A stretch of 64,000 nucleotides of DNA from Bolinopsis microptera (taxonomy: Eukaryota; Ctenophora; Tentaculata; Lobata; Bolinopsidae). Positions 8,801 through 40,557 of this stretch are shown in pieces; position 1 is the first letter of the stretch; the number at the start of each line of letters is the position of its first letter. Below the pieces are notes generated by a model. It was given only the letters and a program-made list of their open reading frames with translations. It was not told the DNA's origin and searched no databases. The position numbers and the translations under genes were made by a program. Location: the NCBI RefSeq assembly GCF_026151205.1, contig NC_087084.1, positions 4,459,538 to 4,523,537 of the forward strand. Direction: 5' to 3'.

Positions 8801-11800
8801 TCATTCTAATGTTCCCAGTCACCATAGTTAGCAATCATGTCTAATGTTACCAGTCACCATATTTAGCATCGTGTCAATGTTACCAATCACCATTAGTTAG
8901 CATCATGTCTAATGTTCCCAGTCACCAATAGTTTTATCATCATGTCTAATGTTACCAGTCACCATTAATTTAGCATCATGTCTAATGTTACCAGATCCAC
9001 CAATAATTTAATGCATCATAACTAATGTTTACCAGTCACCAATATTAGCATCATATCTAATGTTACCAGTCACCAATATTAGCATCAGTCAATGATACCA
9101 AGTTCACCATTCGTTTAGCATCATTCTACTGTTACCTAGACACCAAATTTAGCAACATTCTAATTACCATCACCATTAGTTAGCATCAATCTATATGTTA
9201 CCAGACACCAATATTAGCATCCATGTCCTAATGTTACCATCAACCATTTAGTTAGTCATCATGTCTAATGTTACCAGTCCACCAATATTTATGCATCATA
9301 TCTAATGTTACCAGTCACCATTATTTTAGCATCATGTCTAATGTTTACCAGTTCACCATGAGAGTTAGCATCATGTCTAATGTTACCAGTCACGCAATAG
9401 TTAGCAAATGTCTAATGTTACCAGTCACCAATAATTAGCAACAGGTCTAATGTTACAGTCACCATTAGTTTAGCATCAATGTCAATGTTACCAGGCACCA
9501 AATATTTAAGCATCATATCTAAAGTTACCAGTCACCCATTTTTAGCATCATGTCTAATGTTACCAGTCACCATTATTTAGCATATGCCTAATGTTCAGTC
9601 ACCAATAGTTAGCATCATGTCTAATGTTAACCAGTCACCAATAGTTAGCCTCATATCAATGTTACCAGTTCACCATTTAGATAGCATCATATCTAAAGAT
9701 TACCATCACCAAATTTAGCAACATGTCTAATGTACCAGTCACCAATAGTTAGCATCATATCTAATGTTACCAGTCCCAATATTTTTTATCATCATGTCTA
9801 AAGTACCATCACCATTAGTTAGCATCATGTCTAATTTACCAGTCACCCATAGTTAAAGCATCAAGTCAATGTTACCAGTCCACCAATATGTAAGCATCAT
9901 GTCTAATTGTTACCAGTCACCAATATTTAGCATCATGCTAATTTTACCAGTCACCAATATTTAGCATCATGTCAAATGTTACCAGTCACCATTATTTAGC
10001 ATCAAGTCTAATGTTACCAGTAACCAATATTTAAGCATCATGCCTAATGTTACCAGTCACCAATATTTCGCATCATATCTAATTTACCAGTCCACCAATA
10101 GTTTGGCATCATAATTTACTAATGTACCATCACCATAGTTAGCATCCATGTCTCATGTTACCAACACCATTTAGTAAGCAACATATCTAATGTTACCAGT
10201 CACCAAAATTTAGCATCAAATCTAATGTTACCAGTCACCAATAATTAGCATCATGTCAAATGTACCAGTCACCATTAGTTTAGCATCACATTTCCTAATG
10301 TTCCAGTCCCAATATTTAGCAATCCTGTCTAATGTTACAAGTCACCATTTTAGCACATATCTAATGTTACCAGTCAGACCACTAGTTAGCATCATGTCTA
10401 ATTACCAGTCACCAATAATTTAGCATCATATCTAATGTTACCATCACCAATTATTTAGCATCATGTCTAATGTTACAGTCACCAACATTCGCAACATGTT
10501 CATAATAGGTTCTACCATCACCATAGTCGGCATCATTGTATGTTACCAGTCACCATAGTTAGCATCATGACTAATGTTACCATTCACCAATATTTACATC
10601 AAATCTAAAAATTTACCAGTCACCATAGTTGGCATCATGTCTAGATGTTACCAGTCACCAATAGTTGGCATCATGTCCTAATGTTACCATCACCAATATT
10701 TAGCATCATGGTCTACTGTTACAAGTCACCAATAGTTAGCATCATATCTAATGTTACCATCACCATTAGTTACATCATGTTCTAATGTTACCAGTCACCA
10801 AATTAGCATCATATCTAATGTTACCATCACCAATAGTTAGCATCATATCTAATTTAACCATCACCAATATTTTAGCAACAAGTCTAATGTACCAGTCACC
10901 AATAGTTAGCATCATATCTAATGTTACCTCACCAAGTTTTGGCATCATATCTATGTTACCAGTCACCAATATTTAGCATCATATCTAATGTTACCAGTCA
11001 CCAATAATTTAGCAACATATCTATGTTACCAGTCACCATTAGTTAGCATCATATCTAATGTTTACCAGTCACCATTAGTTGGCATCATATCAATGTTCCC
11101 ATCACCAATATTTAGCATCATAATCTAATGTTACCAGTCACCATTATTTTAGCATCATGTAATGTTTCCAGTCACCATATTTAGCATCATGTCTAATGTT
11201 ACCATTCACCAATATTTTAGCATCATGTCTAATGTTACCAGACACCAATAATTAGCATCATAACTAATGTTACCAGTCACCATTAGTTAGCATCAAATCT
11301 AATGTTACCATCCACCAATATTTTAGCATCATGTCTAATGTATCATCCACCAATATTTAAATCATGTCAAATGTTTTACCAGTCACCAATATTTTAGCAT
11401 CATGTTCTAATGTTACCAACCCCATTAGATAGCATCATAATCTAATGTTACCAAGTCCCCAGTATTGCATCATAGCAAATTTTTTACCAAGTCCCAATAT
11501 TTAGCATCAGTCTAATGTTACCAGTCACATTAGTTAGCAACATGTCTAATGATTACCAGTCACCATTAGTTTTAGCATCAGTCTAATGTTACCAGTCACC
11601 ATATTTACATCATGTCTAATGTTTACCATCACCATATTTAGCATCATGTCCTAATGTTACCAGTCACCAATATTTAAGCATCATATCAAATGTTACCAGT
11701 CACCATTATTAGCATCATAATCTAATGTTACCAGTCACCAATATTTAGCACATGTCTAATGTTACCATCACCAATAATTTAGCATCAAGTACTAATGTTA

Positions 11801-14800
11801 CCATCCACCAATAATTTAGCATCAAATCTAATGTTACCATCAACCATGTAGTGTTACATCATATCCTAATGTTACCATTCACCATTAGTTGGCATCATAT
11901 CTAATGTTACCAGTCACCAATAATTAGCATATGTCAAATGTTACCAGTCACCATTATTTAGCATCATGTCTAAGTTACCAGTCCCTCAATATTTTAGCAT
12001 CATACTAATGTTACCAGTCACCAATATTAACATCATGTCCTACTAATATACCAGTCACCAATATTTTAGCATCATACTAATGGTTACCATCACCCAATAT
12101 TTAGCATTCATGTTCTAAATGGTTTAACCAGTCACCATTAGTTGGCATCATGTCTAATGATACCATCGACCATTATTTAGCAACCTGTCTAATGTTACAG
12201 ATCACCAATAGTTGGCATCTATCTAATGTTAACAGTCACCAATATTTAGCATCATGTCTAATTACCAGTCACAATTTTTACATCATATCTAATGTTTACA
12301 ATCACCAATTTTAGCATCATATCCTAATGTTACAATCCACCATTATTCGCAACAATATTCTAATGTTACCAGACACCATATTTAGCATCATGACTATGTT
12401 ACCAGTCCACCAATATTTAGCATCATGTCTTAAATGATACAGTCACCAATATTTAGCACAATATCTATGTTACCAGTCACCATTAGTTACATCATATCTA
12501 ATGTTACCAGTCACCATTCGTTGGCAAACATCATCTAAGTTACCATTCACCAATATTTAGCATCATATCTAATGTTACCAGTCACCAATATTTAGCATCA
12601 TGTCCTAATGTTACCAGTCACTCAATATTAGCATCATAATCTACAAGTTACCAGTCACAATATTTAGCATCATGTCTATGTTACCATCACCAATAAATAC
12701 AACTAACAAATGTTACCAGTCACCATAGTTGGCATCAAATCTAAAGTTACCAGTCACCATCTATACAACATAGTCTAATGAAACCAGACACCAAAAGTTC
12801 GCATCATATCAAAGTTACCATCACCAATATTTAGCAGCAAGTCTGATGTTACATTCACCAATATTTAGCATCATATCTAATGTTACAGTCACCAATAGTT
12901 GCATCATATCTAAAGTAACCAGTACCCCACTATATAGTCATCAATGTCTAATGTTACCAGTCACCAATAGTAAGCATCATATCTCATGTTACCAGTCACC
13001 ATTTTTAGTCATCAAGTCTAATGTTACCATCACCATTAGTTAGCATCAAGACTAATGTTACCAGACACCAATATATAGCATCGATCAACAAGTAACCCAG
13101 TCCACCTATGTTTGCATCAAATCTAATATTACCAGTCACCAATAATTAGCAACATATCTCATGTTCCATCACCAATCATTAGCATCATATCTAATGTTTT
13201 ACCATCACACAATATTTAAGTCATCATAATCTAATGTAACAGACACAATAGTTAGCATCATGTCTAATGTTTACCAGTCACCAAATTAGCATCATATCTA
13301 ATGTTACCAGTTCACCATTAGTTTGCATCAAATCTAATAATTACCAAGTCACCAATATTTAGCATCATATCTAATGTTAACCATCCACCAATATTTAGCA
13401 TCATATCTAATGTTACCATCACCAATAGGTTGCATCATATCTAATGTTACCAGTCATCAACCAATATTTAGCATCTGTCCTAATTTACCAGTCCACCAAT
13501 ATATAGAGCATCAATCTAATGTTACAGTCACCAATATTTAGCATCATATCTAATGTTACCATTCACCAATATTTAGCATCATGTCCTAATGTTACCAGTC
13601 ACCATTAGTTAGCATCATGTCTATTGAAACCAACACCAATATTTAGCATCATATCTAATGTTACCAGTCTCCAATATTTAGGCATCATATCTAATGTTAC
13701 CAGTCACCCAAATTAGCATCATATCTAATTTTTTACCATCACCAATATTTAGCATCATATCTAATGTAACCATCCACCAAATATTTAGCATCATGTCTAA
13801 AGTTTACCAGTCACCCAATATTTAGCATCATGTCCCTAATGTTACCAGTCACCAATAGTTAGCATCATGTTCTAATGTTACCAGTCACCATTATTAGCCA
13901 TCAATGTCTAATGTTACCATTCACCAATATTTTTAGCAACCAGTCTAAAGTTACCATCACCATTAGTTAGCATCATATCTAATGTTACCAGTCACCAATA
14001 GTTTGGCATCATGTCAAATGTTACCATCACATTATTTATCATTCATAACTAATGTTACCAGTCACCAATATTTAGCATCATATCTAATTGTTACCATCAC
14101 CAATATTTAAGCATCATTCTAATGTTACCAGTCAACAATATTAGCATCATATCTACTGTAACCAGTCACCATATTTAGCATCATATCAATGTTACCAGTC
14201 AACCAATATTTAGCATCATGTCTAATGTTACCAGACACCAATATTTTGCATCATATCTAATTACCAGTCACCAATATTTAGCATCATGTCGTAAAGTTAC
14301 CATCACCAATATTAGCATCATATCTAATGTACCATCACCAATATTAAGCACATATCTAATGTTACCATTCACCCTTAGTTTACACATGTCTAATGTAACC
14401 AGTCACCATTATTATCATCATGTCTAATGTTACCAGCACCAACATTAGCATCATATCTAATGTTACCAAGTCACCAATATAAGCATCATGTTCCTAATGT
14501 TTACCAGTCACCAATAATTTAGCATCAATCTAATTACCAGTCTCCATATTTAGCATCATATCAATGTTACCAGTCCACCAAAAGTTATCATCATATCTAA
14601 TGTACCAAGTCAACAATATTTATCATCATATCATAATGTTACCAGTCACCAATATTTAGCATCATATCTAAATTACAGTCCCACCAATAATTTCGCATCA
14701 TGTATAATGTAACCAGTCCACCATTAGTTAGCATCAATGTCTAATGTTACCAGTCCACCATTATTAGCATCATGACCAATTGTTACCAGTCACCAATATT

Positions 14801-15722
14801 AAGCATCATAATCTAAAGTTACCAGTCACCAAATCATATAAGCAACATCACTAATGTTACCAGCACCAATATTTAGCATCATGTCAAATGTTAAACCATA
14901 CACCATTAGATTAGCAACATGTCTAATGTAACCATCTCCATTAGTTAGCATCAGTCCTAATGTTACCATCACCAATATTTGCATCATGTCAATGTAACCA
15001 GTCACCATTAGTTAGCATCATAACTAATGTTACCAAGTCACCAATATTTAGCAACAATATCTATTGTTACCATCCCATTAGTTTTAGCATCATGTCTAAT
15101 GTTACCATCACCAATATTTAGCATCAAATCTAATGTTAACCATCACCAATAGTATAGCATCATGTCTAATGTTACCAGTCCCCAATATTTAGCTCAATCT
15201 AATGTTACCAGTTCACCATTAGTTAGCATCATATTAATGTTACCAGTCACCAATGTTTAGCACATATCTAATGTTACCAGTCACATTAGTTGGCATCATA
15301 TGAATTTACCATCACCATTAATAGCATCATATCTAATGTTACCAGTCACCAATATTTATGCATAATGTCATAATGTTTTACCAGTTCACCATTAGTTTAG
15401 CAAACATATCTAATTTACCAGTCACCAATTATTTAGCATCATGTCCTAATGTTACCAGTCACCATTAGTTAGCATCATATCAAAATGTTACCAGTCGACC
15501 AATATACAGCAACATGACTAAATGTACCAGTCACCAATAGTAAATCAACATATCAAATGTTACCAGTCACCAATTGTTAGCATCATATCAAAGTACCACA
15601 CCAATATTTAGCATCATATCTAATGTTTACAGTCCCAATATTAAGCATCATGTCAAATATACCAGTCACCATATACAGCAATCAAATCTAATGTAACCAG
15701 TCACCCAATATTTAGCATCAGT
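5897..15722. repeat. 35-bp satellite array, indel-rich block (about 280 units)
   Basis: This is the same GTTACCAGTCACC unit as the left block, but nearly every unit carries single-base deletions or insertions (GTACCAGTC, CATCACC, GTTTACCAG). Substitutions are rarer than indels, which is typical of unpolished long-read or low-quality consensus, not of natural satellite drift. A natural old array cannot be excluded. All ORFs read from this block are translations of the repeat and are not genes. Confidence 0.93.
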
Positions 15723-16376: not shown

Positions 16377-18969
16377 TTAGACTGACCTGAATTTTCACTT
16401 TTTCGTCCGATCATCTTGGAAAGTTTTTTGTACATCCCCATAGACGTAAATAGTAACCAAAAAAATTATTTTTGAAAAATTCGGAAATTTAGGTGTGCCC
16501 CAAGCCGTTTCCATGACAACCGCGCTCGCGAACCTCAGAAATCTGGAAAAATTCGATATCTCAGGACCCATTGCACCTACAGAGCTAAAATTAGGCTTAA
16601 AAGATGCGGAATCAGCACATTTATATGAGACTTATTAATAAACATATAGCCTAAAGTGCTCACTTTCGTCAAAAATTGCAAAAAACACATTTTTTGTACA
16701 TTTCCATGGCAACCGCGCCCTAAAATTTGGATGTGCATCTCTATTTTTCAGTCAAACTATGAACAGCTCAGAACTACAGGGGGATAACTACAGGGAGAGA
16801 ACAGCTCAGTACTACACCTGAGGAAGAACTACAGGAGGGAGAACAGCTCAGAACTACAGGAGGGAGATTTACAGGGGGAGAACAGCTCAGAACTACAGGA
16901 GGGAGAACTACAGGGGGAGAACAGCTCAGAACTACAGGAGGGAGAACTACAGGGGGAGAACGGCTCAGAACTACATGAGGGAGAACTACAGGGGAGAGAA
17001 CAGCTCAGAACTACAGGGGGAGAACAGCTCAGAACTACAGGGTGGGAGAATTACAGGGTAGAGAACAGCTCAGAACTACAGGGGGAGAACAGCTCAGAAC
17101 TACAGGAGGGAGAACTACAGGGGGAGAACAGCTCAGAACTACAGGGTGGGAGAACTACAGGGGGAGAACAGTTCAGAACTACAGGAGGAAGAACTACAGG
17201 GGGAGAACAGCTCAGAACTACAGGAGGGAGAAATACAGGGGAGAGAACAGCTCAGAACTACAAAGTACAGGGGGAGCACTACAGCGGAGAGAACAGCTCA
17301 GAACTACAGGGTGGGAGAACTACAGGGGCCGGGGGAGAACAGCTCAGAACTACAGGAGGAAGCACTACAGGGGGAGAACAGCTCAGAACAACAGGAGGGA
17401 GAACTATAGGGGCAGAACAGCTCAGAACTACAGGGTGGGAGAACTACAGGGGGAGAACAGCTCAGAGGAACTACAGGGGAGAGAACAGCTCAGAAGAACT
17501 ATGGGGGAGAGAACAGCTCAGAAGAACTACAAGGGAGAACAGCTCAGAACTACAGGAGGAAGAACTACAGGGGGAGAACAGCTCAGAACTACAGGGTGGG
17601 AGAACTACAGGGGGAGAACAGCTCAGAAGAACTACAGGGGAGAGAACAGCTCAGAACTACAGGGGGGAGAACTACAGGGGAGAGAACAGCTCAGAAGAAC
17701 TACAGGGGAAGAACAGCTCAGAACTACAGGGGAAGAACAGCTCAGAACTACAGGAGGAAGAACTACAGGGGGAGAACAGCTCAGAACTACAGGGGGAGCA
17801 CTACAGCGGAGAGAACAGCTCAGAAGTACAGGAGGGAGATCTACGGGGGAGGGGGGAACTACAGGGGGAGAACTACAGGGGGGGAGAACAGCTCAGAACT
17901 ACAGGGGGGGGGGGGGGAGAGAACTACAGGGGAGGGGGAGAACTACATGGGGGAACAGCTCAGAAGAAACTACAGGGAGGGGGGAGAATAGCTCAAAAGA
18001 ACTACAAGGGGAGAGAACAGCTCAGAACTACAGGAGGAAGAACTACAGGGGGAGAACAGCTCAGAACTACAGGGGGAGAACTACAGGGGGAGAACAGCTC
18101 AGAACTACAGGGGGAGCACTACAGGGGAGAGAACAGCTCAGAACTACAGGGAGGGAGAACTACAGGGGAGGGGTAACTACAGGGGGAACAGCTCAGAACT
18201 TCATGGGGGAACAGCTCAGAAGAAACTACAGGGAGGGGGGAGAATAGCTCAAAAGAACTACAGGGGGAGAACAGCTCAAAAGAACTACATGGAGAGAGAA
18301 CAGCTCAGAACTACAGGGGGTGAATTACAGGGGGAGCAGCTCAGAAGTACTATAGGGGGAGAATTACAGGGGAGAGAACAGCTCAGAACTACAGGGAGAG
18401 AACAGCTCAGAACTACAGGAGGGAGAACTACAGAGGAGGGGGAGAACTACATGGGGGAACAGCTCAGAATTATGTAGTTCTAAGCTGTTCTCCCTCCTGT
18501 AGTTCTTCCTCAGGTGTAGCACTGAGCTGTTCTCTCCCCTCTAGTTCTCCCCCTGTAGTTATCCCCCTGTAGTTCTGAGCTGTTCATAGTTTGACTGAAA
18601 AATAGAGATGCACATCCAAATTTTAGGGCGCGGTTGCCATGGAAATGTACAAAAAATGTGTTTTTTGCAATTTTTGACGAAAGTGAGCACTTTAGGCTAT
18701 ATGTTTATTAATAAGTCTCATATAAATGTGCTGATTCCGCATCTTTTAAGCCTAATTTTAGCTCTGTAGGTGCAATGGGTCCTGAGATATCGAATTTTTC
18801 CAGATTTCTGAGGTTCGCGAGCGCGGTTGTCATGGAAACGGCTTGGGGCACACCTAAATTTCCGAATTTTTCAAAAATAATTTTTTTGGTTACTATTTAC
18901 GTCTATGGGGATGTACAAAAAACTTTCCAAGATGATCGGACGAAAAAGTGAAAATTCAGGTCAGTCTAA
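16377..18969. mobile_element. Foldback-type DNA transposon with long terminal inverted repeats
   Basis: The ends are TTAGACTGACCTGAATTTTC and its reverse complement. The left arm (16377 to about 16858) and right arm (about 18475-18969) are near-perfect inverted copies of about 490 bp. A 6-bp direct repeat TTTCTA flanks the element at 16371-16376 and 18970-18975. The core is a tandem array with no transposase. Long inverted arms plus a minisatellite core describe a foldback element that needs a transposase supplied elsewhere. I cannot assign a superfamily from a 6-bp duplication alone. Confidence 0.85.
16860..18475. repeat. Minisatellite core of the foldback element
   Basis: Imperfect repeats are built from GAACAGCTCAGAACTACAGG and GGGAGAACTACAGGGG blocks, spaced about 18-40 bp. 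The array also extends into the arms. Long open frames across it (17042-18247 and others) encode only repeated GREQLRTTGG-type peptides and are by-products of the repeat. Confidence 0.9.
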
Positions 18970-25232: not shown

Positions 25233-25425
25233 CCGAAAACCAAATTTAAAAAATTTAAAAAATTAAAACAAAAAAAAAAACCCAAAAAAAAAATAACCAA
25301 CCAAAAATTTTCTAAAAAAAAAAAAACCAAAAATTAAAAACCAAAAAAAACCCCCCCTTAAAATTTAGCCCACTTTTTTAAAACCCCCCCCCCCCCCCCC
25401 CCCCACCCCCCTTTATACCCCAGGG
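24640..25425. other. Probable low-quality assembly stretch
   Basis: Base runs are doubled or longer almost everywhere (GGGG, CCCC, TTTTT, AAAA), with poly-C tracts of about 46 at 25184-25229 and about 18 at 25385-25404. The texture matches poor base calling at read ends more than genomic DNA. The ORF at 25133-25330 is an artefact of the poly-C run. It abuts the frameshifted part of the receptor gene, so that gene's 3' end may be lost here. Confidence 0.7.
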
Positions 25426-25479
25426 TTTTATTTCCGTTCATTTTTTCCTTCCGTTTTTTGCTGAAGCTTCGTTGCTTTT

Positions 25480-28400
25480 AACAGCACTTGTCGTTTCTCG
25501 TTGCCAAAACATTTACATACAGATAACATCCTCCGATTAACAGCACACAAATGAGATTCGTCAACAGGATGGTTATAGAATAGAACTTGTAGATAACGTC
25601 TTCTCGCACGAAGTAACTGAATAAACAGAATCGCATTACTACCATAGAAACCGAGGTTTTGTTCCAGTCACCACATCATTAGCAAACATATCCTTGACTA
25701 GATTCCTATCGCAGCCCAAGACATTATTGCATCAGACTCACCTTCGTGTAATACTCTCCATAGTAAGCGTAGATTATTATCCATGTGCTTCTGCTTGTTT
25801 GGCGCTCCTAGGAACAGCCTGTTTTTGTGATAGTTTAGTTTTTGTACGAAATAGTCCTCTGCAATGAGCAACGGTAATGTTGCAACTAAAGTGGAAAGTA
25901 TTATGATGACACATACGGTTGAAGCAAGAAAGAGTTTTGTTGTTGTTGACATTTCATCTTTTGGTGTTAACATTGATCTTATTTTTTGGCACGGATTACA
26001 CTCAGAACTGTCATCGAGTAAAGGGATAAAAGGGACCCAATAGTTGAGATGACCCCCAGTATTTGCAGAGTGAGCTGGTTGTCCACTCAAATTGAGAACT
26101 GCAGTCACTCCTGTTAAAGAACTTGTCACCAAGTGATAACATTATCAAGAAGATTCCTTGAAGCAGATCTCCAAAAGTTATCAAAAAGTACAAAACATTT
26201 GTTCACCCGAGCAGTCTCCGTCTTCAGAAGGGATACTCCCGGAAGTCCGTTTATAAAATTGATTGAGGTTGAGAGAAGTTGCAATTATCCCAAACACCAA
26301 GGCTACAATCAGATAAGCTATGTGATCAAACATTACAATTTGATTACTGCAGTCAGAATTGCACTCATCTGAAAAGTCGTAGCAGTCAAATTTTCCATTG
26401 CACTTGCTAGAAAGTGGAATGTACTCCTTTGACACGGAACATTGAAATTGTTACTACAATATTTCTCATCAGATTCATCTTTACAGTTAACCACCAAATT
26501 GCAGACTTCATCGAATGAGGTGCATTGACCGTCGTCGCAAGCAAATACTGCCTTGCTAATATGTGAACTACTTCGTTGAATAGCAAGCCCAAGTTTGTTA
26601 TCTTCAGCCAATGACATCACCAACTTATCTTTGGGATAGTTATAGCATTTTTTAATTTTAGGTGATACAATCAAGGGTTTCAACGGGCACGTGGAGTAGT
26701 CACCACACAAGTCAGCGCATGCAACGTAAACATACAGTTCCCCAAACAGATTTCTACAATCAGTGTGATATTTAGCATAGTGCTCTGACAATATAACGTG
26801 GATATCGTCAACTCCAGCTAGCTTCTTTTGGTATGTCAGTCTTGTTGACGAACAGTTTCCATTTTTATTCTCAAGGTCGTGTAATCCAGGGAGACAGTGA
26901 AATAACCGCTTTGTGCTACCGTCAGCAACTTTGTAGGGCACTGAGCTGATTATTTCGTAGTCTTTCCTCGCAGCCTTACAAATTTTGTAGTCGCAATTTT
27001 GCTTTTCACTCAGACAAATTCCATTCAAGTCCATCATCTCAGGTCGATAGGGACATTTCAATTGAGTTGACGAGCAATTGCTGTTGAAACTGGTTTGATT
27101 TTTAGCAGATGAATAGTAATCCCTTAACCCAAAGCCACACTCCTTCTTCCACTTTTCAGGAGCTTCGTCGATGTTATTAACGCAGTCACCAACTCCATCA
27201 AGGACCCACTGGCGTGGAATCAGAGAAATTTGTTTAGTATACGACCACCTCCTTACGCAGTTAATTTCAATCATGTCTTCACAAAATAGATCATCCTCAT
27301 CACGACCGTTTAAACAGTCTTTGATATTGTCACACAACCTGTGTTTGTGAATCTTGCACTCGAACTCTGCGTTGACACACTCTCTTTCTATACCATCATC
27401 ACAGAGACGAACGTGTATATCTTTAGTTTTGCATATCACGTGGTCTGATATGGTGGTAGGGTAGTTGTCAACATCGCACAGCAAGGGACTTATAGTGGAG
27501 AATGTGCAGTTCATTTGGTCTCTGAAGTCACTGCAAACCATCTGTGCTTTGTCAGTTTCTAAGATGGAGCACTTCGACCGTGGAGTGAGCACTCGTCGAA
27601 ACTCGTTTTTCTGGGTGGCAACAGTATAAGCAAACGGCAAAGAATTTGACTCACAAGTTTCGTTGTATTGTTTACAAAAATTCTCATCAATCCGTGAAAG
27701 ACAGTCAGGCTTATGGTCACAAATTTGATATGGCTTTACGTACATTTTCACTCTCTGAAACCGATCGACACAAAAAATTCCACTGGTCATGTTGTTGCAG
27801 GACGCCTCATCATCGCAATCGTTGCAATCGCAGACATTATCACATACCTTATCATAATTCAAAGTTCCCCCTAACAGGCAAGTAAAGTTAGCAGACGCTT
27901 TTTGATAGTCACATCCGTATTCATCAACAGAGACGCCATCAATAGTATTCAGACAGTCAGGTTCTTGGTTGCAGCGAATATGACTCCAAAAACCGGGGGG
28001 CCCCGTGAAGACTTTGTCAGGAATGTGCACAGAAAGTTGTGGGCGAATAAACAGGTTCTTCATACGACATATTAATTGCCCGCAAGCTGCCCTTTCTATT
28101 CCAAAATCTTCAGATGTCATACTACGGATACACTTAGTAAGGCCGCAAGCTTGGTAGAAGGCGTCATCATTTGGGCAAATCTTGGTGAAAGACACATCTT
28201 CACAAGCCTTTGAAACAATTTTGTAATATCTATCTGACCGGCTACATTTGAAGTATCGATGATTTTCGATTATGCATTCTTCTTTCAGGAAACCTTGGAA
28301 ATTTGTAAAAGTGCAGTTGCTCGCCCCCAATTTGTGGACCCTAGTAGGGACAGTGCCGCGTTCACCGGCAAGGAAGCGTTCAGTTGACGTCACGAAATTT

Positions 28401-28486
28401 CCCCATGATCCATGTTCCGTTCTTAGCTGTCCAGTTGAAAATACAGCGAATGTGAGAAGGATCAAAATTATATGGTCAGCTGACAT
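25480..28486 (-). CDS. LDLR class A-repeat 7TM receptor, frameshifted at 3' end
   Basis: A long first ORF (ATG at 28486, open to 26333) begins with a signal peptide, MSADHIILILLTFAVFSTGQ. It encodes a cysteine-rich ectodomain with LDLR-A-like acidic motifs: CDCNDCDDEASC, CDHKPDCLSRIDENFC, CDNIKDCLNGRDEDD and CNLVVNCKDESDEKYC. The fold continues past frame changes near 26430 (another LDLR-A motif, CNGKFDCYDFSDEC, then TM1 IAYLIVALVFGIIATSLNL), 26185 (TM2 FLITFGDLLQGIFLIMLSL), 26050 (TM3 after CKYWG) and 25985 (TM4 VCVIIILSTLVATLPLL). A TM5-like segment, YSITILLTNLICVLLIGGC, lies near 25550. The order resembles LGR/GRL101-type rhodopsin-like GPCRs, though no leucine-rich repeats are seen. Frame changes fall at short homopolymers beside a low-quality stretch, so sequencing error is as likely as pseudogenisation. 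It lies in the presumed RIM intron on the opposite strand. Confidence 0.72.
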
Positions 28487-28489
28487 TGT

Positions 28490-29298
28490 TGATCTCCGAA
28501 AATACTTTACATTCGGGTCTGAAAGCAGTGAAGTATGAAGTTTACAATCTTAGTTATCAACTTCGGTCAATGAAACAGATTAATGTTCTAATTCGGAAAC
28601 CGCTTAGGTATTATATTAATAAGGCTACAATGCTATTCATGATAGACCATGAATATGATAGATCGTTTGCATTTTACTCGCCATGTATCAGTGCCACAAT
28701 AAATGGATCAGGCCGATAATAATATAAAATTGGTCATTGTTCAGCATTTAAATTTATGATATGAAGAAGCCTTGTGACAGTTTGGATGACAAAATTCTCT
28801 CGCAAATTAGTGATACGTTTTTAATAACGCTGAACTTCGGCATAATCTAAAAAGTACAGTATTGAGAAGGTGATATGAGCGACCTAAATTTTTAAAATTG
28901 CAGAATACTATAGGAGTATAGGGCACTGGAAACTATCAAAATTTTTTAACATTTTAACATTTAAACATTTAACAGTGTTTAATGTTGAGGAATCATGCGT
29001 GACTAAAATGGCCAGTGACCACGTTAAATTGAAGAAACGTAAATTTAGTGAGAGAGCCTGAAAAGATTTTTATTTTATATCACGAAGATCGCTTTGATTC
29101 AGTTAAATGGTTGATATCTCCGCGCTGTACACGTGTCTTAAGGTCGGCCCAATCATAACACAGCTTTTTTAAAATGTTTACGCCTTAGCATCGGCCCACT
29201 GTAAGCCTTTGTTTTATATTTATATCATGATGTAAAGTGTATTTGAATTTTGAAATAAAAACATTTGTTGACGTAGGGAGCGCTAAATGGCGATAAAG
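28490..29298. other. Non-coding upstream region of the receptor gene
   Basis: No gene is seen. The receptor promoter should lie in the first few hundred bases after 28486, but I cannot point to a specific element. Confidence 0.35.
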
Positions 29299-29299
29299 A

Positions 29300-29535
29300 T
29301 AACAATAGACAGTAAAAGCCTCTTTGTGCTATAAAATATCATTTTGGAGATAAGAATCTGTGGATGTTAAGATAACTTTACAACTTTTAAATGTTCCTTT
29401 GTTATTTTCTTCTAGATAGATAACAATACACAGTAAAAGCCTCTTTGTGCTAGAAAATATCATTTTGGAGATAAGAATTTGTGGATGTTAAGATACTTTT
29501 ACAAATTTTAAATGTTCCTTTGTTATTTTCTTTCT
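29300..29535. repeat. Tandem duplication of about 120 bp
   Basis: Two adjacent copies share AACAATA(G/C)ACAGTAAAAGCC, then ATATCATTTTGGAGATAAGA and TGTTCCTTTGTTATTTTCTT. They differ at only a few positions. Confidence 0.9.
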
Positions 29536-29562
29536 ATGATACCTTTTTTTGGGTCAATTCCC

Positions 29563-29650
29563 CCGTCGCTCGCTTTTCCCATTCTCATGACATTTTGCTG
29601 GCCGTGAATCAATTAAAACAAGCCACCAATTTCATTCTCCGTGTCATTTG
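29563..29650 (+). repeat. Fragment related to the 22.5-kb foldback element
   Basis: GTCGCTCGCTTTTCCCATTC and AATTTCATTCTC(C)GTGTCATT match segments of the arms at 22517-23241, with an interruption between them. Confidence 0.5.
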
Positions 29651-29891
29651 GGAATAGTCATTAAAGTTAATAAAATCGTTTTTGTAATATTTTGGTATAA
29701 AATTGCTTTTAGGTATTTATTGATTACATGATTCGATTTTAAAATGCATATGTTGTATTGGCCTATCCTAATAGATCCCGATGCATCCTTTTTTAAATAA
29801 CCGCACATAAATTCATATACTTTAGAGTTAAAACTACTCAACGAAACGTTCTGTTACTCTAACCAAAATTATAAAACTGTGCTCCTTGCAG

Positions 29892-30440
29892 ATTCGGTTA
29901 CAGTTTGAGAGTGACCAGTTGATGGTGACTGCAATCTCAGCTAAAGGACTCATACCTCGAGATAAGATGGGATCTGCTGAACCTTATCTCAAACTATATC
30001 TTCATCCCGACAGAAGGTTGTTCAATATTTTGTTGATAGATACAAATATTTAATTTCGGTATTTTACATATTTTATTAAATGCAGATTCTGGTCGGATTC
30101 GTAAGGCATATTTTTGGACACGTGACAGAAATTGACCACTCAGCGCTTCGGCTGTTGACCAATTATTACACCCCAGAATCACTTTCACGTGTCAAACAAT
30201 ATGCATCATCTCCCCACAAGAATCCACATCTATAAATCTTGCAATAACTTAGCTACTTAGCTAATTAAAAGTATGAGACGATCACTCATACTCTGACCAA
30301 CTTAAATCTAAATATAAATTGACAGCACCCCTTTAACTCCGTGATCTCCTTATAGTAAACGGAAAACGCGGGTTATGACGCGGACCCTGAACCCGGAGTG
30401 GAACCAGCAGTTTGTCTTCCCAGGGGTCTCTGCTGCAGAG
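29892..30440 (+). CDS. Rim: RIM-like gene, two exons encoding a C2 domain (partial)
   Basis: Exon 29892-30016 follows TGCAG and reads IRLQFESDQLMVTAISAKGL then EPYLKLYLHPDR, the first strands of a type I C2 domain. Exon 30356-30440 follows TATAG and reads KRKTRVMTRTLNPEWNQQFV. The split codon AG|T joins them in phase; the first donor is a weak GTTGTT. PYVKMYFLPDRS, KRRTK and EPKWNQTFVY are the matching segments of RIM C2A; piccolo and synaptotagmin-like C2 domains are the alternatives. The rest of the domain (the LEVTVWD strand) is not found downstream in this window. Strand and domain order fit the PDZ exons at 0.4-3.1 kb, which would make an intron region of about 27 kb, but that link is inference. 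Confidence 0.75.
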
Positions 30441-30690
30441 GTAATGTTAACTGTTTTTATTTCTTCCCAGGGGTCTCTGCTGCAGAGGTAATGTTAACTG
30501 TTTTTATTTCTTCCCAGGGGTCTCTGCTGCAGAGGTAATGTCAACTGTTTTTATTTCTTCCCAGGGGTCTCTGCTGCAGAGGTAATGTTAACTGTTTTTA
30601 TTTCTTCCCAGGGGTCTCTGCTGCAGAGGTAATGTTAACTGTTTTTATTTCTTCACAGGGGTCTCTGCTGCAGAGGTAATGTTTTTATTT
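30423..30690 (+). repeat. 47-bp tandem repeat carrying an exon end and both splice sites (6 copies)
   Basis: Copies start at 30423, 30470, 30517, 30564, 30611 and 30658, exactly 47 bp apart and nearly identical. Each holds the last 17 bases of the C2 exon (GGGTCTCTGCTGCAGAG), the donor GTAATG, a 30-bp pyrimidine-rich intronic piece (TGTTTTTATTTCTTCCCAG) and an acceptor for the next copy. The array therefore offers six donors and five extra acceptors. Confidence 0.95.
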
Positions 30691-30699
30691 CTTTTTCCA

Positions 30700-31110
30700 T
30701 ATTTTTTTGTTTATTAAAAAATTTACTGGGGACGCTCCTGCTAGTTCTGGTAGGCTACCACGAGCTGCAGTTATTTCTGCGTATCTTTATCTCATACTCA
30801 TCTGCTGAAGTGTCAAAATGTTACAACTATTATTGTGTCTTCTCTAACCCACTTGAGTGCTAATCAACTCCTAAATGTCGTCGAGAACAATAATTGTAAC
30901 TTGTAAGGATAAAAGGAGTATTACGAGGTCCCGAATGATTTTATAAGTGTGAAAACTTAATCATTAAACGTTCAACAATCAATATACGTATTTTAAATTT
31001 CAATTTCTCTGCTTTCATATATTTAGGTGACGCCATTATAATTCTGCCATGTATATAGTTTAACCTATTACCATATTATAGGAGTTTTGATAATTTAAGC
31101 AAGATAATTA
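30700..31110. other. Non-coding, intronic
   Basis: No continuation of the C2 domain is visible on the plus strand. Nothing else is recognised. Confidence 0.35.
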
Positions 31111-31235: not shown

Positions 31236-32345
31236 TTGATGAGGAAAATGGGCAATTAGGTTTGGCTTTTATACGGCAACTATACAGCCTCTATATGGCC
31301 TTTATACGGTCTCTATACGGCCACTATATGGCCACTATATGGCCCCTACACGGCCACTATACGGCCTTTGTACGGCCTCTATACGGCCCTTATACGGCCA
31401 CTATACGGCCACTTAAAAGATATATTTCATGGCCTTTATACAACCTCTAAACGGCCACACAAAACATCTAATCTATGGCCTCCGTACGGCCTCTTTATGG
31501 CCTCTATACGGCCACATCTAACACCTAACATCTAATCTATGGCCTTTATACGGCCTCTATATGGCCTCTATATGGCCTCTATACGGCCTCTATACGCCTT
31601 CTTTACGGCCTTTATACGGCCACTATACGGCCTTTATGCGGCCACCTAAAAAAGTAAAAAGAACATCATATTATAGCCATTATATGATCATTATATGGCC
31701 ACTAAGCAAGTTACCACTTAACAAATAACCGCTTGCAGTTTACCGATATTGATTTAGAATATTAGATTTAGAACTAATAGTATATTAGTTCAGTTACTTT
31801 AGAATATAATAGTAATAATGATATCATAATAAATCCCAATTAATACACAATTACAATAAGATAAATAATTTAATACACATTTCTAGCTGTTAAATGAAAT
31901 CACAGGTTTGAATTAAAATTCATGCTCTCTTGGTAGGTTTCAGGCAACAGATAGAGGCCATATAGAGGCCATATAGAGGCTGTATGGAGGGTATCGATTA
32001 GATGTTTGGGTGGCCGTTTAGAGGCCGTATAAAGGCCATGTAATATATCTTTTAAGTGGCCGTATAGTGACCGTATAAAAGCCGTATAGAGGCCGTATAG
32101 TGGCCGTATAGAGGCCGTATAGTGGCCGTATAAAGGCCTTATAAAGGCCGTATAGAGGCCGTATAGTTGCCATATAAAGGCCGTATAGAGGCCGTATAGA
32201 GGCCGTATAGAGGCCGTATAAAGACCGTATAGTGGCCGTGCTAGGGCCATATAGTGGCCGTATAGAGGCCGTATAGCGGCCGTATAATAGAGGCCGTATA
32301 AAGGCCGTATAAAGGCCAAATTTAATCGCCCAATTTCCCCTTGAA
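31236..32345. repeat. Inverted pair of 12-bp GGCC arrays
   Basis: The left arm (about 31236-31650) is made of CTATACGGCC and CTATATGGCC units. The right arm (about 31940-32345) is its reverse complement. Flanking unique words (TGGGCAATTAGGTTTGGC and its diverged complement) and internal landmarks (CACTTAAAAGATATATT, ACATCTAATC) are mirrored too. The whole block is therefore one large inverted repeat around a spacer of about 290 bp. ORFs in it are repeat translations. Confidence 0.85.
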
Positions 32346-32349: not shown

Positions 32350-35200
32350 TGTAACTTTTAGAGGTAATATCAGTAATGATAGAGTTGCGTCATAACTTAG
32401 TTGAATTAATCCAAATTGTATCACGTCCAACTCGCATAACAGACCACAGTGCCACGCTTATTGATCATATCTACACGAACAATCTTGAAGATACAATAAG
32501 CTGCAACGTATTAACGACAGATCTGTCGGATCACTTAGCGATAGTTACAACAATTAATCTTGATAATACATCCACCAGCAGATACCGCTCTGCATCTCAT
32601 AACCAAAATCCAACTCAAACCAACGTACGTAGTTTTAATGAGGCCAACAACCATAAATTTAGAGATTTAATAATGGAAGAAAATTGGTCTGTAATACTAA
32701 CAAATACCCATGATGCTAACCAGCAGTTTGATTGTTTAAATTCGGCATACAACAGGATTTATAACGCTGCCTACCCGACTAAAAGACAGTCCGAGCGCAG
32801 ACAAAATGAACGTGTTAATCCCAAACCATGGATACTACCCTGGCTTGAAGAAGCTATAGAACGTAAAAATCAGGCATATCATGATTTTGTTAAGGAACCA
32901 GTTGATAGGAACCAGCTAAAATACGACCGTTTGAAAAAGTTTTGCACTAAACACGTTGACAAAGCCAAAAACATACACTACAAAAAATTCTTCGAACAAC
33001 ACAAAGATAATTCTAAGAAGCAGTGGCAGATGATTAACGGTCTTCTGAATAGGAAACCAGCTAAACCTACATCGATAAAACTGTCGGACGAAAACGGACA
33101 AGTCAGCACTCCGGCAGCAGTAGCAGAAAAATTTAATGATCACTTCTCAAACATTGCTCCAAAAATTAAATCTGAAATTAGTAGTAGGACCACGTTCGAT
33201 CCTGGTGGGGCCCAGGGGACACTTCGTAACCCTTCTCCAAATAGTATCTACATAAAACCAGTCACAACTACCGAAGTTCAAGACGTTATTAACCTATTTA
33301 AGAATAAAGCTACTCTTGACACCAAAATCCAACCACTCAAAATTGCCAACAGCTGTCATATTTTTACCACTGTATTGGCCCACGTTGTTAACAGCTCGTT
33401 CGAACAAGGGGTCTTTCCCCAGGCCTTGAAAACGGCAAAAGTAGTTCCTGTACATAAAGGTGGATCTAAAACTGACATCAAAAATTACAGACCGATATCT
33501 CTACTTGCCACTTTCTCAAAAGTCTACGAAAAGCTTATGCACAATCGAGTCATAAATTTTTTGGATACCTACAATATACTTTGTGAAAATCAATACGGCT
33601 TCCGCCCAGGTAGGTCTTGTGAACATGCCCTTCTTAATGCTAAAGACAGAATCCTCAATTCAATGTCCAAAAAGCAAGTTACTTTGCTCCTTTTGATTGA
33701 CTTTAGCAAAGCCTTTGACCTTGTGGATCACTCCATACTCCTGAATAAGCTCGAGCACTATGGCATAAGAGGTCTAGCTTTAAACTGGTTTAAATCATAT
33801 CTTATGAACAGAAACCAGTTTGTATCAATTGGATCCTCTGAATCCTCAGCCAACCCCATTATTTACGGTGTACCCCAAGGCTCAATTTTGGGACCTCTCC
33901 TTTTTATAATCTACATAAACGATCTTCCTCAAATATCAGAAATAGCTAATTTCATCATGTACGCAGATGATGCAAACATTTTCCTAACAGGAGAAAATAT
34001 AAACGAGGTTTATGATAAGCTCAAAATTCTTAGCGATGTCTTAGTTAAATGGGTAGATAACAACGGATTAGCTCTAAATCTAAAAAAAACGAATTATATG
34101 ATCTTTTCTCGGCAAAGAAACCTCATTTATCGCGATGTAGTAATTTCTGGTGTCACAATCGAAAGAAAAACAGAAGCCCGTTTCTTAGGAGTTATAATAG
34201 ATAACAAACTGAACTGGTCGCAACATATTTCTGCCATGAAAATGAAAATGGCCAGATACATTGGAGTCATGTACAAACTTAAAAAATATTTGCCTCTGGA
34301 AGCACGTTTACAAATATATCACAGCTTTGTGCAGTCTCACCTTAATTACTGCTCCCTCGTCTGGGGTTTTGCTGCCAAATCCCACATAGAAACACTATTT
34401 GTAAAACAAAAAATGGGTCTTAGAGCAATACTACCAGGTTTTGTTAATTACTGGTACAAAGATGGTATACCACCAGCAAGTACCAAGTCTGGTTTCTATG
34501 TACACAAAATATTGACAGTTCATAGTATCATCGTAAAGAACGCATTAGTTTTTATACATAAGCTGAAAAACTTCCCAAGTTTAGTGCCTCCCTCTATAAA
34601 GAAAACAATACCTAACAGTGCACCAATATTTAACGTCGCCGATCCGGATACGAGTCTTACAACTACATGGTCAGATGAATACGGTAAATACCCTTACAAT
34701 AATTCAGTATTCTACAAAGGTCCACTACTAGCAATAAACAGATATAGTGTCGCAGCAACTTCCTTGCCAAGTCTATTCAACCTTAACATCTACAAAAGGT
34801 GCATAAAAAACATGCTCATTGATCAACAAAACGAGGGCATTGCAGACGAATGGCCCAACTTTATGTTATACAATATAACGGGACTAAGGAAATCAGAGCG
34901 CAACATCAACCGCAATGCTAATAATAACTCTGTCTCATAAGCACGCCATCACAGAATCAATCTCACTGCATACCATCTCAGTTACACTGCCATCAATTCG
35001 CCAGCAAAAACGGCATGACGCTATGCGACTGATAACAGTCGTTAAATTTTTAAAATTTTGGAATAGCTAGCTAGCCCTAGCTATGCGCCTGTTTCCACTC
35101 TACAACTCTATAAAAAGCGCATTAATATGATAATTTTAACTAAAGGCAACTTTATATGTGCTCAGCTATGTTTTGTTCGACAAGCTCCATGATATACATA
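32350..35200 (+). mobile_element. CR1/Jockey-like LINE, 5'-truncated, intact ORF2 remainder
   Basis: The ORF at 32376-34940 is followed by a 3' UTR whose end I cannot place exactly. The 5' part of the endonuclease is missing and the left junction is near 32350, beside the inverted GGCC array. The long uninterrupted ORF suggests recent insertion. Confidence 0.8.
32376..34940 (+). CDS. Non-LTR retrotransposon ORF2: endonuclease C-terminus and reverse transcriptase
   Basis: The 854-codon frame starts inside the apurinic-like endonuclease: ATLIDHIYTN and DLSDHLAIV are its last conserved motifs. The reverse transcriptase follows with NYRPISLLATFSKVYEK, GFRPGRSCEHALL, LLIDFSKAFDLVDH, YGVPQGSILGPLLFIIYIND and the catalytic YADD at about residue 530. 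C-terminal to it are FLGVIIDNKLNW and the thumb/connection region. The enzyme nicks the target and copies element RNA from the exposed 3' end. No internal stop or frameshift is present, but lacking the endonuclease N-terminus this copy should not be able to move alone. Confidence 0.9.
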   Translation: MIELRHNLVELIQIVSRPTRITDHSATLIDHIYTNNLEDTISCNVLTTDLSDHLAIVTTINLDNTSTSRYRSASHNQNPTQTNVRSFNEANNHKFRDLIMEENWSVILTNTHDANQQFDCLNSAYNRIYNAAYPTKRQSERRQNERVNPKPWILPWLEEAIERKNQAYHDFVKEPVDRNQLKYDRLKKFCTKHVDKAKNIHYKKFFEQHKDNSKKQWQMINGLLNRKPAKPTSIKLSDENGQVSTPAAVAEKFNDHFSNIAPKIKSEISSRTTFDPGGAQGTLRNPSPNSIYIKPVTTTEVQDVINLFKNKATLDTKIQPLKIANSCHIFTTVLAHVVNSSFEQGVFPQALKTAKVVPVHKGGSKTDIKNYRPISLLATFSKVYEKLMHNRVINFLDTYNILCENQYGFRPGRSCEHALLNAKDRILNSMSKKQVTLLLLIDFSKAFDLVDHSILLNKLEHYGIRGLALNWFKSYLMNRNQFVSIGSSESSANPIIYGVPQGSILGPLLFIIYINDLPQISEIANFIMYADDANIFLTGENINEVYDKLKILSDVLVKWVDNNGLALNLKKTNYMIFSRQRNLIYRDVVISGVTIERKTEARFLGVIIDNKLNWSQHISAMKMKMARYIGVMYKLKKYLPLEARLQIYHSFVQSHLNYCSLVWGFAAKSHIETLFVKQKMGLRAILPGFVNYWYKDGIPPASTKSGFYVHKILTVHSIIVKNALVFIHKLKNFPSLVPPSIKKTIPNSAPIFNVADPDTSLTTTWSDEYGKYPYNNSVFYKGPLLAINRYSVAATSLPSLFNLNIYKRCIKNMLIDQQNEGIADEWPNFMLYNITGLRKSERNINRNANNNSVS

Positions 35201-35335
35201 TTAATCGTTTTAATGAGACCTAATCTTGTGTGAGTTTTGAGTTTGAATTGATAACACTTATTATATATATTATTTTTTGAGTAAACATTGGCTGGTACTT
35301 CGGGCCGGTCCCCAACCAACCAATGCTATCCTCAG
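34941..35335. other. LINE 3' region and upstream of the zinc-knuckle gene
   Basis: No coding region is seen. It probably contains the LINE 3' UTR and the promoter of the downstream gene; the boundary is not visible. Confidence 0.35.
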
Positions 35336-36682
35336 ATGAGAAATAAACAACTCCGCAGATGCAGGGCTAAGTCGGATGGGTGCATAAAAAATCACTCCAA
35401 ACATTTTTGTCGGCTATGTGATAAAAATAACTCGGATCATCTCTCCAGAAATTGCCCTCATGCTAGTACACTTTACCATGGAACTAAAGCCGAAAAAGCA
35501 AAAAAGATCATAATGGAGGGGCTTAAATGCAGTCCAACTGGCATGCTTGGTCGAGGGATATACTTTGTTGATAATAGGGATCATGCTCTAAAAATAGCAA
35601 GCGTCAAAAATCCTAACAATTGGTCTGTCTTAGAGTGCAGGGTTAATCTAGGGCCTCCCAAAAGATCACTTACAGGAAATCAATCTCATGATACAATTAC
35701 AAGATTATATGGAACAGTTGGTGTTCATGCTCCATGGTTAGGCATTAGAACCGACTTTATGGAATACTGCTTAACTAATGAAAAAAAGTGCAATGTGGTC
35801 GCAGAAATCTCAAAAAACGGAGAATTCATCATCATGAACAAAATTGCTATCCTCAAGGCACTTTATCAAATTTCGCAAGCCAGCAATGTGCAGTCGAGAA
35901 ACCCTGCATCAGTCACTCAAATGAAAAAGACTGTTCCACCAAGACGTGCTACTGTATATACGCAAAGACGACCTACAACGGTGCCAGCATGGCAACCGGT
36001 GACAACGCCAAAACGACAACTCGAAGTAGCGCTTAGAAAACCTGGAACAAAAGTGCCAAAACAAACTGCAGCAGTAGCGATACAACACTCGGCAGCACCA
36101 ACGCTGAGAAGTAGACAACCTGCAACAACTGCAGTGCCAAAACAAACTGCAGCAGTAGCGATACAACACTCGGCAGCACCAACGCTGAGAAGTAGACAAC
36201 CTGCAACAACTGCAGTGCCAAAACAAACTGCAGCAGCAGCAATACAACACTCGGCAGCACCAACGCTGAGAAGTAGACAACCTGCAACAACTGCAGTGCC
36301 AAAACAAACTGCAGCAGTAGTGATACAACACTCGGCAGCACCAACGCTGAGAAGTAGACAACCTGCAACAACTGCAGTGCCAAAACAAACTGCAGCAGCA
36401 GCAATACAACACTCGGCAGCACCAATGCTGAGAAGTAGACAACTTGCAACAACTGCAGTGCCAAAACAAACTGCAGCAGCAGCAAAACAACCCTTAGCAG
36501 ACCAATATCGACAACAACATGGCAAAGTTACTAAGCAGGCCACGGTAGTGCCAAAACTAACAATAGATATTTCGGCAGGGCCAAAGCCAAGAATTGGAAG
36601 AGGACAACCTGCACGAAGAGGACCTTTGGGTATGATATGCAACCAGATACGACGCTTGATTGGTTGTACATACTATAACTAA
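35336..36682 (+). CDS. Zinc-knuckle, PARP/Gig2-like domain protein with 27-residue repeats
   Basis: A single-exon gene of 448 codons. The first ATG is at 35336; the frame is open only to 35285. Residues 25-40 form a C-X2-C-X6-H-X4-C zinc knuckle (CRLCDKNNSDHLSRNC). Residues 46-77 carry LYHGTKAEKA and GMLGRGIYF, the H and Y motifs of the ADP-ribosyltransferase fold. The later segment ending NEKKCNVVAEI suits the compact PARP-like fold of Gig2-type proteins; a catalytic glutamate is not obvious, so activity is uncertain. From residue 240, five near-identical 27-residue units (VPKQTAAVAIQHSAAPTLRS...) form a basic, alanine- and threonine-rich tail, 81 bp per unit at 36053-36457, plus a partial sixth. 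The end is also basic (RIGRGQPARRG). AATAAA lies about 35 bp after the stop. Gig2 proteins in fish are interferon-induced; a role in defence here is only a suggestion. Confidence 0.75.
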   Translation: MRNKQLRRCRAKSDGCIKNHSKHFCRLCDKNNSDHLSRNCPHASTLYHGTKAEKAKKIIMEGLKCSPTGMLGRGIYFVDNRDHALKIASVKNPNNWSVLECRVNLGPPKRSLTGNQSHDTITRLYGTVGVHAPWLGIRTDFMEYCLTNEKKCNVVAEISKNGEFIIMNKIAILKALYQISQASNVQSRNPASVTQMKKTVPPRRATVYTQRRPTTVPAWQPVTTPKRQLEVALRKPGTKVPKQTAAVAIQHSAAPTLRSRQPATTAVPKQTAAVAIQHSAAPTLRSRQPATTAVPKQTAAAAIQHSAAPTLRSRQPATTAVPKQTAAVVIQHSAAPTLRSRQPATTAVPKQTAAAAIQHSAAPMLRSRQLATTAVPKQTAAAAKQPLADQYRQQHGKVTKQATVVPKLTIDISAGPKPRIGRGQPARRGPLGMICNQIRRLIGCTYYN

Positions 36683-39038: not shown

Positions 39039-40557
39039 ATGAAGATTGACAAGTTGTTACCTTTGATTGCAACGTACTTCGTCATAACTATTCAGGCCGG
39101 TAAGCCTTTTATTGTTTATTTCATTTAATTTCTGTAACCTTTTTAAAAACTTTAGCCGTTCTCTCCCGCAGCTAACCAAACTGATATTACTATTTTGGAA
39201 TAAAGAATTTTATAATATGACTGGAAAGCCCGTGGTCACGTGATCAGAAAGCTAATGGTGTTTTTTATAGTCAGTTTTTACCGTATCAAAAAGTATCCAT
39301 CACAAGCGAAGATAATCCAAAATCGTTACTATGCAACTTTATATTTCTCAACAAATTTGCAAATTGCACGTAAGCGGTCATACGTAGGTCAAAACTTTCG
39401 AATTATATGTAAGAATAGAAAACCCGAGATTACAAGCTGATAGTATTCTTTGAAAGTTAGTTACGATGATGGTCTTATTTTTAGCATCAAAAATATTCAT
39501 CACAACCGAACATATAGCCGCTTTGAATGTAAAACACACTCCAGACTATGTAATAGTTCTACAAAACCGATCATAATGCCCCTTCAATAATCTTTGCACG
39601 TGCACGTTCTCATATTCGTAACTATGAAATTTCCTATTTCTCATCCACTTTGCACGTGGGCGGTCGTACGTACGTGCAGAAAGAAACTGTCGAATATCAA
39701 ATATGAATATCACAAACACTTATAGACTTATATTCATTCCTTTTTGCACTTTTGCAGGAGCCGAACTAGAGAAAATATTGATAGTAAGATCTGAAGCAAA
39801 AAGCTGGTTTAATGACGATCAAGATGACCAGTATGGACTTGACCATTGTTAATGATCTGGCCCGGCGCGCGCTACTTCGTAGCACTTGCCGTCGGGCCAT
39901 TTCGAGAAGAAAGCGGCGCGCGCTACTTCGAAGAAATTTAGACGAGTAACATCCGTCAAGTATGGACCGAACAAAGCTCACGATGGAGATTACAGCACGT
40001 TCTACGCTGCTAAAAGCAGTGATCTGCAAGGAAACTTTCTAAAACTTTACCTATCAGGAAGTTATGAGATAGCTGTCGTTAAGATCACCAACAGGCTAGA
40101 TTGCTGTCAAGATAGGATAGGTAGTTAACACTGCCGTCAAGGTCTACAGTGGCGGGAAAGAAACGGGCGACTGCGGCACTATCTCAGGTAGTTAAGTCTT
40201 CTCATAATTTATTATATTATAAACATATTCATAATCAATACAAGCCCGTAATGCTGAGGGAAAACAAAAACACATACAATGACATTTGTCCTGTATCTGC
40301 AGTATTCGGAAACCACACGATTGGCCACAGTTACTTGACCACACTCTACAGTTACCAAGTAAAACATTATATCCCGTCTAATGACACGTACTTTAGCTTC
40401 AGATATCGACTCTGATCACTCAACGGATCCAGAAGCTCGAACATACACCCTGAATTGCAACAATGCTGAAGGAGATATGATCTTATAATATCAGGTCGAA
40501 CCTCGGAGTTGGGCCATGGTATCTCTGAAGTGGTGGTATATAATTATAAAGCTAAAA
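39039..40557 (+). pseudogene. F5/8C-type fucolectin (FTP lectin) gene, disrupted
   Basis: Exon 1 (39039-39099) encodes a signal peptide, MKIDKLLPLIATYFVITIQA, and ends in phase 1 at GTAAGC. Exon 2 (39758-40187) follows TTTGCAG in the matching phase and contains KAHDGDYSTFYAAKS, then VVKITNRLDCCQDRIG and VYSGGKETGDCGTIS. The ITNR.DCC..RI signature is typical of fucolectin/tachylectin-4/pentraxin domains that bind sugars. Exon 3 (40403-40557) reads DPEARTYTLNCNNAEGDMI, then SEVVVYNYKAK up to GTGAGT. Defects: in-frame stops TAA, TGA and TAG within a GC-rich insertion at about 39850-39935 holding two GGCGCGCGCTACTTCG copies 41 bp apart; a frame change near 40125; another near 40485. Exon structure is kept, so decay is recent or partly assembly error. 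Confidence 0.7.
39221..39700 (-). mobile_element. Two degraded Helitron-like copies, minus strand
   Basis: Copy one (39221 to about 39410) starts GGAAAGCCCGTGGTCACG and ends at GTAAGCGGTCATACGTA. Copy two (about 39415-39700) starts GAAAACCCGAGATTACA and ends GTGGGCGGTCGTACGTAC. Each matches the reverse complement of 37249-37556 in order. They lie in intron 1 of the fucolectin gene. Confidence 0.55.

Follow-up and report, generated by a model that had tools for sequence, protein, structure and literature searches.

A minisatellite-like tandem array over an exon-intron boundary in a probable RIM-like gene of the ctenophore Bolinopsis microptera

Results and discussion

At the end of a C2-domain exon of Bolinopsis microptera, the last exonic bases, the splice donor behind them and 25 intron bases stand in six head-to-tail copies. 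We consider it likely that this array is a minisatellite of the "mirage" kind described in amphioxus, in which the first donor is used and copies 2 to 6 leave with the intron, so that its effect is near neutral. Tandem arrays over exon-intron boundaries are rare but already known from amphioxus and human, and the ctenophore array is a new member of this group in another phylum.

The array and its copies

The window, by which we mean the whole stretch of 64,000 nucleotides analysed (G000:C13:4459538-4523537), belongs to a genome of 264.65 Mb in 232 contigs, and all listed matches of the genome searches lie on contigs C1-C13. TRF reports a tandem array at 30415-30683 (period 47, 5.7 copies, 98% matches, 0% indels), in which the 17-nt exon tail GGGTCTCTGCTGCAGAG starts at 30424, 30471, 30518, 30565, 30612 and 30659 and is followed each time by GTAATG. 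The six tandem copies of an exon end with its donor that an earlier note on this DNA had described are thus borne out.

30415-30683, forward strand: 47-bp tandem array of 5.7 copies (TRF and copy alignment), at a single genomic place
30676-30700, forward strand: last copy, without TGTTAAC, continuing into the native intron (tails and copy alignment)

A genome-wide search with GGGTCTCTGCTGCAGAGGTAATG (23 bases, up to 3 mismatches) listed six matches, all of them in the array, and the control, the same pattern read backwards, listed none. A 341-bp probe of the array locus gave one listed match in the genome, with no second haplotype copy of the locus among the matches listed for it.

In a 51-column alignment copies 1, 2, 4 and 5 show no differences, copy 3 carries a single T>C, and copy 6 carries a single C>A and lacks 7 bp. 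These seven bases, TGTTAAC, are flanked in the other copies by TGTT repeats, a position that suggests loss by slippage. The near identity of the copies suggests that the array is probably young; homogenisation within an older array could look alike. The view of the earlier note that the array was "caught young" is therefore plausible, although a homogenised older array would match equally well.

The host gene

The exons assigned to the host gene all lie on the forward strand, and the feature of a RIM gene that a PDZ domain precedes a C2 domain is present (PDZ at 1.4-3.1 kb, C2 at 29.9-30.4 kb).

1382-1498, forward strand: exon with the first part of a RIM-like PDZ domain, start approximate (home-made PDZ HMM, 10.2 bits, E 0.13)
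2977-3143, forward strand: exon with the second part of the PDZ domain, 3143 being the end of the open frame (home-made PDZ HMM, 7.3 bits, E 1; join in frame)
29892-30016, forward strand: exon A, 125 nt, first part of the C2 domain (C2 match; the copy on contig C11 differs by one base across the exon)
30017-30355, forward strand: intron A-B, 339 nt, with a dispersed repeat at about 30077-30237
30356-30440, forward strand: exon B, 85 nt, second part of the C2 domain, ending SAAE in phase 0 (in frame with exon A; flanks TTATAG and GTAATG)

Exons A and B together give 70 codons in frame with a Pfam C2 match of 58.2 bits. The best matches of this C2 part are synaptotagmins, and RIMS2 is found at 4.1e-11. 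The two PDZ exons keep the frame across the join CAG|GTAAAT ... ATCAG|GAG, and their spliced product has RIMS2 as its best PDB match (42.1 bits), followed by RIMS1; against the Pfam PDZ model it scores 18.5 bits, below the cut-off of 23.2 bits. Judged from these matches the host gene is most likely RIM-like, and strand and order point to a single gene for the PDZ and C2 exons. That the C2 exons are an isolated fragment is made less likely by the PDZ exons upstream, with RIM as their best match. Between the PDZ and C2 exons lies a 35-bp minisatellite of about 279 copies that covers nearly 10 kb (5901-15720), and the dispersed repeat in intron A-B (about 150 bp, 30077-30237) recurs at 43 or more further places in the genome.

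The end of exon B coincides with array copy 1. We infer this end from the reading frame, from homology to C2 domains, from the GT, and from two near-identical C2 genes that have a phase-0 intron close to the corresponding place. For comparison three other C2 exons were fetched, on contigs C7, C10 and C3. The near-identical exons on C7 and C10 start after a phase-0 intron, in the same loop and some 5 residues further on in the composed consensus, which is consistent with an intron at the end of exon B; the exon on C3 has no intron at the corresponding place and reads through.

C2 profiles revealed nothing credible as a next C2 exon beyond A and B in the window, in 30 kb upstream of it and in up to 90 kb downstream (extended to 50 and then 90 kb, the 90-kb run covering the forward strand). 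A genome search with the composed C2 consensus listed 11 matches, namely exon B and ten other places, and none of these ten lies elsewhere on C13. Pfam scans of the three forward frames over 20.0-29.9, 36.7-46.6 and 46.5-56.4 kb, with stops read as X, yielded only a weak F5/8-type C exon (39883-40128, forward strand, 20.6 bits, below the cut-off), and Rfam and ARAGORN gave no matches over the window. A far or divergent C2 exon could have escaped these searches, and the PDZ-C2 gene might also be truncated.

Part of the locus is duplicated: 25421-30044 is a 4.6-kb segmental duplication, 98% identical to C11:14814169-14818788. Exon A lies in it, together with an ORF on the other strand that has an LDL-receptor class A domain, and its end falls inside intron A-B. 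Since the duplication stops at 30044, the C11 copy is without exon B and is of no use as an outgroup for the array.

Anatomy and origin of the repeated unit

The earlier note had counted 17 exonic bases in the unit; the alignment of its borders corrects this to 22, CCCAG and the 17-nt tail, followed by 25 bases of intron, with TCTT common to exon and intron at the junction. The exon before copy 1 reads TTTGTCTTCCCAG and the native intron behind copy 6 continues TATTTCTTTTTCC, both containing TCTT. The five inner junctions read TATTTCTTCCCAG, the last of them with CACAG. Nor was a "complete downstream acceptor" copied, as had been claimed: the apparent acceptor is new, because it consists of the T-rich start of the intron joined to the exonic CCCAG.

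The simplest history that we infer is a tandem duplication at the 4-bp TCTT match, followed by expansion. A single duplication with its breakpoints in the TCTT shared by exon and intron would have produced the first junction, and the array would then have grown by slippage or unequal exchange, with TGTTAAC presumably lost from the last copy by slippage between the TGTT repeats. Each junction would thereby create an acceptor-like site (TTTTTATTTCTT intronic, CCCAG exonic), so that every copy resembles a 17-nt exon with splice sites of its own.

In total the array contains six exon tails, six donors and five spacers of 30 nt.

30441-30470, forward strand: the first of the 30-nt spacers, GTAATGTTAACTGTTTTTATTTCTTCCCAG, containing a candidate branch site, TTAAC

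The other spacers start at 30488, 30535 (with TCAAC), 30582 and 30629 (ending in CACAG). The branch-site reading of TTAAC follows the consensus and is tentative.

Splice sites, reading frame and intron lengths

The six donors differ in the product that each would give.

30441-30442, forward strand: donor 1, GAG|GTAATG, the sole donor that keeps the frame
30488-30489, forward strand: donor 2, use of which retains 47 nt and shifts the frame
30535-30536, forward strand: donor 3, use of which retains 94 nt and leads to a stop
30582-30583, forward strand: donor 4, use of which retains 141 nt and leads to a stop
30629-30630, forward strand: donor 5, use of which retains 188 nt and leads to a stop
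30676-30677, forward strand: donor 6, on the side of the native intron, use of which retains 235 nt and leads to a stop

Since donor 2 shifts the frame and donors 3 to 6 run into stops, the C2 protein would come from donor 1 only. Donor 1 is accordingly the one predicted to be used, with copies 2 to 6 removed together with the intron.

The sites were scored with a small, rough matrix built from 13 local introns (11 collagen, 2 of the host gene), and comparisons with its own training set are indicative only. By this measure the array donor is weak (1.7, against 3.9-11.2 for the 13 training donors) and stands at the 75.2th percentile of the 4078 GTs of the window. Acceptors 2 to 6 are fair (9.6-10.4, training acceptors 7.1-17.3): among the 3906 AGs of the window acceptor 2 reaches the 98.9th percentile, acceptors 3 to 5 are equal to it and acceptor 6 is higher. 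The exonic AG before copy 1 scores -0.6. A weak donor together with acceptors inside the local range makes mis-splicing at the array conceivable. It would be of low level and its products, being out of frame, would be destroyed; apart from this the array is expected to be near neutral.

One or two copies included as microexons would mean 17 or 34 extra nt and a frameshift, and the smallest in-frame set is three, adding 51 nt that stay open (GSLLQRGLCCRGVSAAE); this frame arithmetic is as the earlier note had given it. All ten ways of choosing three microexons require at least one intron of 30 nt. The possible introns within the array measure 30, 77, 124, 171 or 218 nt. The 11 collagen introns, chosen by eye among 23 Gly-X-Y runs with the first run (61447-61367) omitted, measure 116-307 nt and are all GT-AG. 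For myosin, 42 pairs of neighbouring matches give estimated introns of about 98-1628 nt; the pairs were drawn from 73 matches, less than 3 kb apart and joining within 20 model positions, with the others dropped and some pairs sharing a match. Stops occur within 18 of the 73 matches, so that short introns there may have gone unnoticed. The 30-nt spacers are thus shorter than every collagen intron (11/11) and every myosin estimate (42/42). Lengths of 124, 171 and 218 nt fall within the measured range, and introns of 77, 124, 171 and 218 nt inside the array are possible. A ladder of 17-nt microexons with 30-nt spacers, as proposed earlier, is right as to the six tails and the good-looking acceptors; the spacers number five, and their length does not support a ladder that could be used.

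Repeats and gene families around the locus

Two identical 78-aa ORFs in inverted orientation (16395-16631 and 18715-18951) flank a GAACTACAGGGGGA minisatellite. Downstream of exon B lies an open reverse-transcriptase ORF of 861 aa (32355-34940), with 11-bp TATACGGCC repeats upstream of it at 31270-31643 and, reverse-complemented, at 32058-32317. The open frame at 35285-36682 has a match to the PARP catalytic domain and contains an 81-bp repeat (27 codons, 5.6 copies) at 36052-36505. Past the window the same short ORFs recur at about 82133, 90963, 123161, 132549 and 142082, which suggests repeated segments of roughly 9-10 kb downstream.

A sample of 234 kb, taken around the array locus and on C11 and hence non-random, contains 25 merged arrays (period 20-200, at least 3 copies, at least 80% matches), which cover 10,929 bases with the studied array included. 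Where minisatellites are this dense, an occasional array across an exon border is no surprise.

Elsewhere in the genome, an aequorin search found 56 places (on C1, C2, C3, C5 and C13), 55 of them stop-free and many in tandem at about 1-kb spacing. These places are read as large photoprotein gene arrays. Against solved structures one of the places scored 347 bits with berovin and 343 with mnemiopsin 1, both ctenophore photoproteins, and 75 with the best obelin. At G000:C3:9154012-9154485 two adjoining stretches both correspond to Myosin_head positions of about 102-167 and may be mutually exclusive exons.

Relation to known boundary arrays

In amphioxus, mirages are described as tandem units over exon-intron boundaries, both 5' and 3' (PMC3087553). 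The units of the Adh3 mirage measure 10-72 bp, and in BflGb9 the 3' exon boundary is duplicated as well (PMC3087553, PMC3902484); haplotype 1 of BflGb6 has six units, the number found in the ctenophore (PMC3087553). According to the authors, with RT-PCR for the globins, mirages leave regular splicing intact (PMC3087553), and a model of intron gain from mirages was already drawn in 2010 (PMC3087553; PMC3902484).

The ctenophore array resembles these mirages in that its units span an exon-intron boundary and contain splice sites. It is a minisatellite-like tandem array (47 bp, 5.7 copies, 98% matches), and GAG|GTAATG occurs in each copy at an exon end that frame and homology point to. Homogeneous inner copies and a divergent edge copy, here copy 6, are likewise a feature of mirages, although the array has no more than six copies and its first edge copy shows no divergence. 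Unlike the amphioxus cases, the array lies in another phylum and another gene, and its acceptor-like sites arise solely at the junctions. Regular splicing and length instability are reported for the amphioxus mirages.

In human, variable minisatellites that lie at exon-intron boundaries of genes in segmental duplications have been linked to novel introns (PMC2812944). The minisatellites have units of 30 bp on average in 4 copies, and some lie at exon-intron boundaries (PMC2812944). Paralogs differ in the number of copies, and in some cases the transcripts point to new introns; the ctenophore case, in contrast, is one locus with a segmental duplicate that is without exon B.

In the model of intron gain by tandem duplication, an exonic AGGT segment is copied and the protein stays unchanged (PMC4974935). 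Fission yeasts multiplied a 24-bp unit with AGGT (PMC4974935, PMC3443670), and in the potato RdRp a duplication across an intron-exon boundary did make an intron (PMC4974935). As in these cases and in ATP2A1, duplication in the ctenophore supplies both a donor and an acceptor. The introns known from tandem duplication are spliced, however, whereas the ctenophore spacers are 30 nt long and one or two units break the frame. An exonic AGGT segment that was duplicated is absent, as the AGGT of the array is what we regard as the existing exon-intron boundary. The array differs from the structure proposed for AG-GT intron gain, in that an existing boundary was copied and any single microexon breaks the frame; the potato case shows that introns can also arise from boundary-crossing duplications. 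A literature search on ctenophores and splicing listed no comparable array, and one may still be in print.

Alternative explanations

The principal alternative, which we regard as unlikely but not negligible and which overlaps with the preferred explanation, is that the PDZ-C2 gene is truncated or dying, with the array in neutral DNA where local splicing is irrelevant. The searches over up to 90 kb past the window and over the genome gave no remainder of the C2 domain, the donor is weak, and 4.6 kb with exon A and without exon B is also present on C11. This is countered by 70 open codons whose visible exon ends have GT and AG and by a C2 match of 58.2 bits, by the RIM-like PDZ upstream on the same strand, and by the far or divergent exon that may have escaped the search. 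It is improbable, in our estimate, that intron gain is under way, with some copies included as 17-nt exons and with new introns formed by single spacers or multiples of these. The percentile of acceptor 2, matched by 3 to 5 and exceeded by 6, would fit it, as would TTAAC in four of the five spacers and TCAAC in the fifth (20 nt before the AG end), the open 51-nt product and the tie of human boundary minisatellites to new introns (PMC2812944); the 30-nt spacers, however, are too short by comparison with the collagen introns and the myosin estimates, and in-frame products with three microexons depend on such an intron in all ten choices, one or two microexons shifting the frame.

Two further readings have very little probability. 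An assembly artefact, with fewer copies in the animal, might be suspected since the haplotypes of one amphioxus mirage differ (6 versus 3 units) and the draft genome was misassembled over it (PMC3087553); but the PacBio reads used for Bolinopsis microptera easily span an array of some 270 bp, and copies 3 and 6 bear variants of their own. It is just as hard to credit that the array is a splicing device in a ctenophore active-zone gene. Recursive splicing could take place at the CTGCAGAG|GTAATG joints, as exons of zero length, or the copies could be included as poison exons of 17 nt, whose number would set the level of the RIM-like protein. If either were true, the first step of intron evolution would be on view in an animal lineage that is among those that branched off earliest.

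For the mirage-like minisatellite that we prefer, in a species for which Iso-Seq and RNA-seq data exist, the ctenophore case suggests that minisatellite-rich animal genomes make boundary arrays in general. A search of such genomes could supply natural tests of the spliceosome's choice among equal donors, and the arrays could also show how often boundary duplications become introns.
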